From NCBI RefSeq assembly GCF_021389935.1, contig NZ_CP089979.1:5747001-5811000 (forward strand): 64,000 nucleotides of DNA, given 5' to 3'. The notes beneath the pieces were generated by a model. It saw only the letters and a program-made list of their open reading frames with translations, did not search any database and was not told where the DNA came from. This stretch comes from Fulvivirga ligni. Its GTDB lineage: Bacteria; Bacteroidota; Bacteroidia; Cytophagales; Cyclobacteriaceae. The position numbers and the translations under genes are program-made. Shown here in pieces: positions 45,182-53,078 of this stretch (the first letter of the stretch is position 1; the number at the start of each line of letters is the position of its first letter).

Positions 45182-45263
45182 GCCCAGATGGCGGAATTGG
45201 TAGACGCGTTGGTCTCAAACACCAATGTCTTCGGACGTGCCGGTTCGACTCCGGCTCTGGGTA
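45182..45263 (+). tRNA. tRNA-Leu (anticodon CAA)
   Basis: An 82-nt class II cloverleaf. The acceptor strands are GCCCAGA and TCTGGGT, with a G-U first pair and discriminator A. The D arm is GCG-loop-CGC, the anticodon stem TTGGT/ACCAA closes loop CTCAAAC (U33 present, anticodon CAA), the variable arm is TGTCTTCGGACGT and the T arm is GCCGG/CCGGC around TTCGACT. CCA is not encoded. Confidence 0.95.
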
Positions 45264-52851: not shown

Positions 52852-52882
52852 TTTGACAATATAGGCCGTTTAGTTAACTTTG
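52852..52882 (+). promoter_or_regulatory. Promoter of the tRNA-like gene
   Basis: TTTG (52852-52855), 19-nt spacer, TAACTTTG (52875-52882): both boxes match exactly. Transcription should start near 52888, about 22 nt before the folded RNA. Confidence 0.8.
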
Positions 52883-52910
52883 AAATATCAATTAACGAAT
52901 TGATCTACAC

Positions 52911-53042
52911 TGTAGGGTGATGAAACAGGCAGACATGCCCTCCGGTCTCGAGGGTGGGGGTCACGGGATAAATTCTTTTAGAGTATCCAATAACACTATA
53001 AGTACTAACCGCTCCGTGGAGGTTCGAATCCTCCCTCTACAG
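52911..53042 (+). ncRNA. Class II tRNA-like RNA with aberrant anticodon loop and giant variable arm
   Basis: About 132 nt that align base for base with tRNA-Leu at the ends. Acceptor TGTAGGG (52911-52917) pairs with CTCTACA (53035-53041), one wobble; C52910/G53042 can add an eighth pair. The D arm is ATG-loop-CAT with GG in the loop (AAACAGGCAGA). The anticodon stem CCCTC/GAGGG closes loop CGGTCTC. The T arm GGAGG/CCTCC around TTCGAAT is perfect. Unlike a decoding tRNA, position 33 is G, position 37 is T and the variable region (52955-53017) is about 63 nt, with possible stems GGGG/CTCC, CGG/CCG and GGATA/TATCC. A promoter and terminator flank it. Function unknown; annotation tools may call it a pseudo-tRNA. 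Confidence 0.75.
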
Positions 53043-53046
53043 CAAC

Positions 53047-53078
53047 AAAAAAGGCAGCTCAATGAGCTGCCTTTTTTT
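53047..53078. terminator. Strong bidirectional terminator after the tRNA-like gene
   Basis: GGCAGCTC (53053-53060) and GAGCTGCC (53064-53071) form a perfect 8-bp stem with an AAT loop, flanked by A6 and T7. It ends the tRNA-like transcript 10 nt after its 3' end and also serves the convergent lipoprotein gene. Confidence 0.95.

Follow-up and report, generated by a model that had tools for sequence, protein, structure and literature searches.

The window analysed here, a stretch of 64 000 nucleotides of the Fulvivirga ligni genome, carries on its forward strand a tRNA-like RNA that extends from position 1 at 52911 to C74 at 53043, delimited from its sequence, conservation and covariation. Upstream of it lies a promoter TTTG-N19-TAACTTTG (52852..52882), with TTTG at 52852-52855, a 19-nt gap and TAACTTTG at 52875-52882, which we take to be the -33/-7 promoter form of Bacteroidetes. 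Downstream, sequence and fold indicate an intrinsic terminator hairpin at about 53047..53077. The two flanking signals suggest that the RNA is expressed independently. Between promoter and RNA there is an inverted repeat, ATCAATT-AACG-AATTGAT (52887..52904); the leader repeats of three copies from the same genus (L041-L043) have other letters and the same form (TCGAT-AACG-ATCGA).

The first-pass annotation had described a tRNA-Leu-like frame with a 7-8-bp acceptor, a 3-bp D stem, a 5-bp anticodon stem and a T arm, interrupted by an odd anticodon loop and a 63-nt variable region and set between a promoter with a 19-nt spacer and a terminator. Re-reading the sequence recovers all of these elements. 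The acceptor stem has 7 bp (52911-52917/53035-53041), beginning with U1-A72 and G2-C71, and is followed by G73 at 53042 and C74 at 53043; an eighth pair is possible between the C at 52910 and G73. U8 and G9 connect it to the D arm (52920..52936), which combines a 3-bp stem (52920-52922/52934-52936) with a tRNA-Leu-like loop. In the anticodon arm (52938..52954; stem 52938-52942/52950-52954), the loop CGGTCTC (52943-52949) reads C32 G33 G34 U35 C36 U37 C38 and holds the identity letters of tRNA-Asp. The enlarged variable arm (63 nt, 52955..53017) was resolved by alignment and covariation into an outer helix (52956-52959/53012-53015) and an inner helix (52964-52966/53009-53011). The T arm (53018..53034) has 5 bp and the loop TTCGAAT.

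The RNA is called neither by ARAGORN nor by Rfam, including the tRNA family RF00005, at gathering cut-offs, the sole entry being a tRNA-Leu(CAA) at 45182. When the Rfam search is relaxed to E<=10, there is no tRNA match spanning the RNA as a whole; the tRNA-Sec model covers part of it (12.8 bits, E 7.8). The folding energy of the RNA alone equals that of shuffled sequences (z -0.03), and the z of -3.57 for the complete unit was computed with the terminator included. Since the RNA folds no better than its shuffles, the case for it rests on comparison and not on energy.

The genome of this strain (one contig, 6.52 Mb) contains four copies of the RNA. Besides the one in the window there are two that form a pair, at 6397051 and 6397483, and a fourth on the minus strand at 2176367. 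DNA matches at E <= 0.001 were found in 109 of 145 relatives, with as many as ten in a single genome (G045). A covariance model was then available from 37 full copies, aligned with a structure given by hand, and a phylum-wide draw of 392 genomes was searched with it under stricter filters, eight candidates being scored per genome. The best match reaches E <= 1e-21 in 42 of the 392 genomes. The best match of G098 (E 1.5e-15, 68 bits) lacks the variable arm, and this genome was counted as RNA-positive; the remaining genomes of the draw reach at most 63.3 bits. RNA status was assigned throughout by the covariance model, or by DNA matches that the model confirmed. The G098 copy (L129:1501-1578, minus strand) has an altered anticodon stem, CTAGC/GCTAG, and keeps the acceptor, G73 C74 and UCUC at positions 35-38.

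The family was characterized on 101 matches (99 distinct) that score 87-150 bits and come from 71 loci located by searches not keyed on the anticodon loop; further full copies score down to 75 bits. Loci obtained by pattern scan, whose search key contains TCTC, are omitted from the anticodon counts. When the 99 distinct sequences are aligned by fitting to the model, 95.1% of cells are paired, against 83.9% in shuffles, and pairing falls to 52-57% when the partner columns are offset by one to three positions. Both sides have changed in 20 of the 32 pairs, with at least two such pairs in every helix; these counts use the model-fitted alignment, one earlier pair count having been made on a MAFFT alignment. 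The outer helix of the variable arm, for example, occurs as GGAG/CUCC, GAAG/CUUC, GGGG/CCCC and GAGG/CCUC. The first-pass annotation had proposed a covariance search of Bacteroidota, and the conserved family and compensatory changes that it brought to light agree with what was anticipated. Conservation of the variable arm, also raised there, holds for the outer and inner helices and for an internal loop, AUAAA/CUAAC, and does not extend to the distal hairpin, which is free in sequence; the region as a whole spans roughly 40-125 nt across the family. U8 is present in 101/101 matches and the T loop TTCGANY in all 100 listed of 101; with the 7/5 acceptor-T stack and the GG of the D loop, the RNA has the features expected of a tRNA body. 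The comparison supports its assignment to a conserved class II tRNA-like family distinct from a decaying tRNA-Leu gene.

Of 77 first-in-array copies (78, less one too near the end of its locus), 57 have the sequence TAnnTTTG in the 90 nt before them, compared with 108 of 1540 random windows. Neighbouring copies are often close together, 19 of 30 pairs being spaced by 20-65 nt. At such a spacing separate promoters would hardly fit, and this, together with phage copies that stand right after tRNA genes, points to cutting from longer transcripts. The 30 tRNA genes examined in this genome encode C74 without CCA, as does the RNA, which ends in G73 C74 in 101/101 matches. Judging from the tandem arrays and this 3' end, the RNA is probably made like a tRNA, by RNase P and RNase Z processing and CCA addition.

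Six features are fixed in all 101 matches, U1-A72, G2-C71, G73, C74, C36 and C38; U35 is found in 100 and G34 in 95, position 34 being C, A or U in the other six. According to the available text of PMC9976931, the strong determinants of aspartate identity are G73, G34, U35, C36 and C38, with a minor role for the second pair, U1-A72 is the pair that allows Asp-tRNA-Asn to be amidated, and bacterial tRNA-Asp strictly keeps G1-C72. The letters of an AspRS substrate so described, including G2-C71, are all present in the RNA (G34 in 95/101), with the exception of G1-C72, which is replaced by U1-A72 in 101/101. This pair is what a GatCAB substrate should have, and the D loop GGCAG of the 37 aligned copies shows, in our own numbering, that U20a is absent. 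Among 30 tRNAs examined in this genome (a partial set, with no tRNA-Ile), U1-A72 is found only in tRNA-Asn and tRNA-Gln; the four Leu tRNAs have A73, and an ordinary tRNA-Asp is present. On account of its fixed Asp letters and its U1-A72, the RNA looks like the loop of tRNA-Asp and the acceptor of tRNA-Asn mounted on a tRNA-Leu-like body.

The remaining positions of the anticodon loop are of another kind. Position 33 is U in 62 matches, G in 30, C in five and A in four, and position 37 is U in 97, C in three and a gap in one, so that U33 accompanied by a purine at 37, as in a decoding loop, does not occur. Because 33 varies and 37 is never a purine, the RNA should not decode. The first-pass annotation is upheld in regarding it as probably non-decoding, and mistaken in expecting a constant loss of U33. 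Of the functions offered there, an aminoacyl donor comes closest; the Asp and Asn identity letters on the Leu-like body had been missed. Two further candidates were rejected. Charging with serine, considered because of the long arm and G73, would leave the fixed U35, C36 and C38 unexplained, SerRS being described in the accessible part of PMC7609411 as not recognizing anticodons. A translation helper or decoy was dropped when the conserved positions turned out to be those that AspRS and GatCAB read.

The relationship with GatCAB was followed through GatB, the subunit searched. The search was made after the hypothesis linking the RNA to GatCAB had been set down, in 66 genomes hand-chosen from the RNA-scored relatives and the phylum draw. 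GatB is present in all 36 RNA-positive genomes and in 15 of 30 RNA-negative ones. A held-out set consisted of the 71 remaining listed same-family, same-order and same-class genomes of the draw, with 25 match-less genomes standing outside it; here GatB was found in 21/21 RNA-positive and 2/50 RNA-negative genomes, the two exceptions being weaker matches (351-354 bits) that lie in frames 1117-1123 aa long. All 57 RNA-positive genomes thus have GatB.

A split by GlnRS was planned after the GatB counts and before the GlnRS search. AsnRS exceeds its cut-off in 64 of the 66 genomes and GlnRS in 42, among them 26 of the 36 RNA-positive genomes. Where both synthetases are present, GatCAB is not needed for decoding. 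In such genomes GatB is found in 26/26 RNA-positive and 1/16 RNA-negative cases (Fisher 1.6e-10, a value that ignores kinship); one of the 16, G022 (83% complete), shows an AsnRS match that is only partial, and the single one with GatB is G007. The other 14 GatB-bearing RNA-negative genomes of the first set are all without GlnRS over the cut-off. RNA and GatB are also absent together from several genera of three families (f1, f23 and f24) that otherwise have both. These counts point to a strong link between the RNA and GatCAB. The impression of a broken gatB in G007 proved wrong, the gap being a run of N; its asnC-like gene runs into a contig end at the expected site of the RNA, which makes this genome an unreliable negative. 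G022 and G055, which have no GatB, were counted as negative; each retains at the asnC-like locus only a reduced form of the RNA in which acceptor and T arm survive.

AsnA and the Escherichia coli type of AsnB are scarce in the RNA-positive genomes. AsnA exceeds its cut-off in five of the 36 RNA-positive genomes (G018, G044, G045, G098 and G115), and G003 has a partial AsnA match with stops. Of the genomes with motif-confirmed AsnB of the E. coli type, one is RNA-positive (G044) and nine are RNA-negative. One or the other enzyme is present in 5/36 RNA-positive genomes, against 11/15 genomes that lack both RNA and GatB; the 11 include G069, whose AsnA scores 292.0 bits for a cut-off of 292.8, and neither enzyme was found in G022, G099, G189 and G238. 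Two of the 15 GatB-bearing RNA-negative genomes have AsnA or E. coli-type AsnB (G041 and G102). The type of AsnB was determined by sequence motif for fetched loci and otherwise by the pattern of profile matches; the assignment of G103, G147 and G238 to the E. coli type by match pattern was not confirmed by the motif. The 31 RNA-positive genomes without AsnA over the cut-off and E. coli-type AsnB do have other AsnB-like proteins. That of the present genome (631 aa) scores 343 bits against the asnB equivalog (cut-off 499), compared with 940 bits for the protein of G044, and appears to be of a kind other than the E. coli type; it or similar proteins might make asparagine.

Protein clustering placed an AsnC/Lrp-like family in 37 of 61 loci of about 3 kb, and of 20 longer loci (12-16 kb) selected by hand 15 have an AsnC-like gene. 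The gene is divergent from the RNA, at a distance of about 120-200 nt, and remains its neighbour in other families and in another class, in which the rest of the clustered neighbourhood is not shared. The protein has HTH and ligand domains; five proteins score 161-170 bits with the NCBIfam AsnC model NF008384, the best of the Lrp/AsnC models, and fall below its cut-off of 227. An ortholog is present in 15/15 RNA-positive genomes tested; among 14 RNA-negative genomes, seven have one, an eighth has a weaker match of 150 bits, and the remaining six have nothing at this level. Within the stretches of 325-610 nt examined, only five of the 15 RNA-positive genomes have the RNA beside the gene; in the others, the copies lie elsewhere. 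The idea of a broken AsnC-like gene in G055 was not kept. At several asnC-like loci (L052, L056, L060, L061 and L064), the RNA is followed by a trailer close to TTTTGGGTTWATGTTGTTTATT and then by a terminator-like hairpin. The same trailer and hairpin occur upstream of the asnC-like genes of G018, G043 and G076 (L320, L323 and L326), where no RNA was seen, and possibly represent a separate small RNA.

A pattern scan of named genomes returned at least 120 stretches, titles being taken from the 80 among the matches listed. These include Algoriphagus, Cyclobacterium, Echinicola, Hymenobacter, Pontibacter, Dyadobacter and Fulvivirga, as well as Chitinophaga, Niabella, Terrimonas, Neolewinella, Portibacter, Saprospiraceae and Pedobacter. 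U1-A72 is present in 99/100 of the named-genome copies and G73 in 100/100. A search of plasmids with the window copy gave no match. The same pattern was found in 59 IMG/VR contigs, where U1-A72 is present in 55 of the 57 readable phage copies (two of the 59 being cut off) and G2-C71 and G73 in 57/57; the two exceptions are near-identical and have A1-U72. ARAGORN finds genes in 36 of the 59 phage stretches, at least five in 24 of them, and none in 23; one stretch has as many as 25 tRNA genes. A tmRNA is present in eight, a ninth, permuted one being doubtful. Several phage copies of the RNA stand directly after a tRNA gene. Ten proteins examined from eight of the contigs comprise one terminase large subunit, five other phage-family matches and four without a match. 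Two phage copies, representing two variants, found no match among named phage records. The 26 complete low-scoring model matches in phage loci correspond in ARAGORN to 18 tRNA-Leu, three tRNA-Asp, one tRNA-SeC and four without a call.

Several peculiarities of the phage loci were noted, the first two by eye. The distal variable arm often contains a short palindrome (L260, L262, L263, L265, L270 and L291), with a self-complementary middle that differs in sequence between copies (GGCC, TGCA, AGCT, GCGC) and could let two RNAs pair. Other phage copies, among them L275 and L281, have an extra hairpin inside the D loop. A second odd phage RNA with a tRNA-Leu body (L307:5064-5186, L310:7478-7600, L269:7682-7831 and L271:9979-10113, all on the minus strand) has the acceptor AGTCAGG/CCTGACT and A73 C74, and a long stretch in place of the anticodon arm; it has no ARAGORN call.

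The fixed letters for aspartylation and amidation, the way the RNA tracks GatB, the AsnC-like neighbour and the scarcity of AsnA and E. coli-type AsnB lead us to favour, as the probable though by no means assured reading, a non-decoding tRNA dedicated to carrying aspartate while it is converted to asparagine. The one AspRS looked at in this genome is of the bacterial type and contains a GAD domain. Once the precursor had been cut and given its CCA, as for a tRNA, AspRS would charge it with aspartate through G34, U35, C36, C38 and G73, and GatCAB would read U1-A72 and amidate Asp-RNA to Asn-RNA. The pyrimidine at 37 and the free position 33, perhaps with the very large variable arm, would keep the Asn-RNA away from Asp codons. 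Asparagine would then leave the RNA, either by release or by transfer; in the simplest case it would become free asparagine that AsnRS loads onto tRNA-Asn. The AsnC-like regulator, divergent from the probably ancestral copy, may tune expression to amino-acid supply, and phages with their own set of tRNAs would bring the RNA too.

Some observations count against the RNA as an aspartate carrier: AsnA is present in five RNA-positive genomes, other AsnB-like amidotransferases exist, and letter 34 varies in 6/101 matches. The AsnC-like protein is below its cut-off, the RNA is seen beside the gene in only five of the 15 RNA-positive genomes examined for it, and the gene is kept in seven of 14 RNA-negative genomes. 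Since G1-C72 is strict in tRNA-Asp, as given in the text available of PMC9976931, an RNA with U1-A72 may be a poorer substrate for AspRS. The same pair occurs in the tRNA-Asn of this genome, so that a relaxed AspRS acting on tRNA-Asn could do the same job, as reported for Bdellovibrio in the consulted portion of PMC4206432; this route would leave the existence of the RNA unexplained.

The same conserved letters and the same link with GatB would be expected if Asn-RNA were not a source of free asparagine but, like the tRNA-Gly of Staphylococcus, a donor for a non-ribosomal ligase acting on cell wall, lipid or natural product, and the large conserved variable arm could bind such a partner. No ligase recurs beside the RNA, however, the neighbour that recurs outside the order being the AsnC-like gene, and phages carry the RNA; we consider this alternative unlikely, if the most serious. 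Slightly less likely again is a sensor, in which the Asp/Asn charging state of the RNA would report amino-acid supply, perhaps to the AsnC-like protein: the divergent position of that gene would suit it, but up to ten matches per genome (G045), tandem arrays and phage copies better fit a bulk substrate.

An odd-shaped but ordinary decoding tRNA-Asp with anticodon GUC is improbable. The loop is CUGUCUC, with U33-G34-U35-C36, in 38/101 matches, and phages keep the RNA in tRNA arrays; against this, no match has a purine at 37, 39/101 lack U at 33, an ordinary tRNA-Asp exists in this genome, and a decoding tRNA-Asp would have no reason to track GatB. U1-A72 would moreover mark the Asp form for amidation, which in a decoding RNA would place asparagine at Asp codons. 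Charging by GluRS, with GatCAB producing Gln-RNA, is very improbable: it can draw on C34 U35 C36 in 3/101 matches, but G2-C71, U1-A72 and the pyrimidine at 37 clash with the bacterial Glu set as far as PMC9976931 presents it in the text at hand, and 26 of the 36 RNA-positive genomes have GlnRS. Last, a decaying or selfish tRNA-Leu copy, in spite of the several copies per genome and the reduced forms in G022 and G055, can hardly account for covariation in every helix, invariant determinants of synthetase and amidotransferase recognition, positions 33 and 37 that are free or wrong, and the tight GatB link; the first-pass annotation was right to doubt decay, against which the evidence is strong for the family as a whole, and single copies could still decay.

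If the aspartate-carrier reading is true, a tRNA has been kept only for making an amino acid, its synthetic role split from the decoding role; this would explain why Bacteroidota with both AsnRS and GlnRS possess GatCAB, and phage tRNA arrays would gain a member with a metabolic job. The RNA in any case adds a family missed here by ARAGORN and Rfam, and no description of such an RNA was found in the open-licence PMC literature. We hold in even balance the broader proposal that, in a whole branch of bacteria, much or all of the free asparagine is produced by way of a non-decoding chimeric RNA cofactor that replaces asparagine synthetase, under an Asn-sensing regulator sited where E. coli has asnA, and important enough for large phages to pack the RNA beside tRNAs and tmRNA.

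In E. coli, asnC is divergent from asnA. The present locus resembles that arrangement in having an AsnC-type gene divergent from a putative asparagine-making function, and differs from it in that the RNA would replace the synthetase gene and that the regulator is AsnC-like, below the curated cut-off. The dedicated tRNA-Gly of Staphylococcus is of class I and serves as donor for cell-wall peptides. Cited for its non-canonical function, with altered D and T loops and charging by the normal synthetase (PMC8007984, in the text available), it parallels the role proposed for the RNA, and differs in its class, its role as a cell-wall donor and the lack of amidation. Allo-tRNAs and selC* tRNA-Cys also have long variable arms, were found by comparison and are in some cases polycistronic. 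According to the accessible part of PMC7609411, however, allo-tRNAs have 8/4 or 9/3 acceptor/T stems, allo-tRNAs and selC* have Ser or Cys identity where the RNA has a 7/5 stack and Asp letters, and the phyla given there do not include Bacteroidota. Compared with the tRNA-Leu of its own genome, the RNA shares the D arm, U44, the long variable arm and the class II body, and differs in having G73 in place of A73, a GUC loop with C38, U1-A72 and a variable region of roughly 40-125 nt. A functional parallel is the tRNA-dependent synthesis of asparagine by a non-discriminating AspRS and GatCAB in Deinococcus, Thermus and Bdellovibrio, which, in the consulted portion of PMC4206432, has the same amidation signal U1-A72 and the same co-occurrence of GatCAB with AsnRS and GlnRS, there without an Asn synthetase. 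In the survey of 547 genera presented there, 18, Bacteroidetes among them, have AsnRS, GlnRS and GatCAB and no Asn synthetase, and bacteria so equipped were proposed to use a relaxed AspRS on tRNA-Asn. The carrier in that system is the decoding tRNA-Asn with a relaxed synthetase, whereas here it would be a separate, probably non-decoding RNA; as this RNA bears the Asp identity letters itself, an ordinary AspRS might do, and the relaxed partner in these Bacteroidota may be the RNA instead of AspRS.
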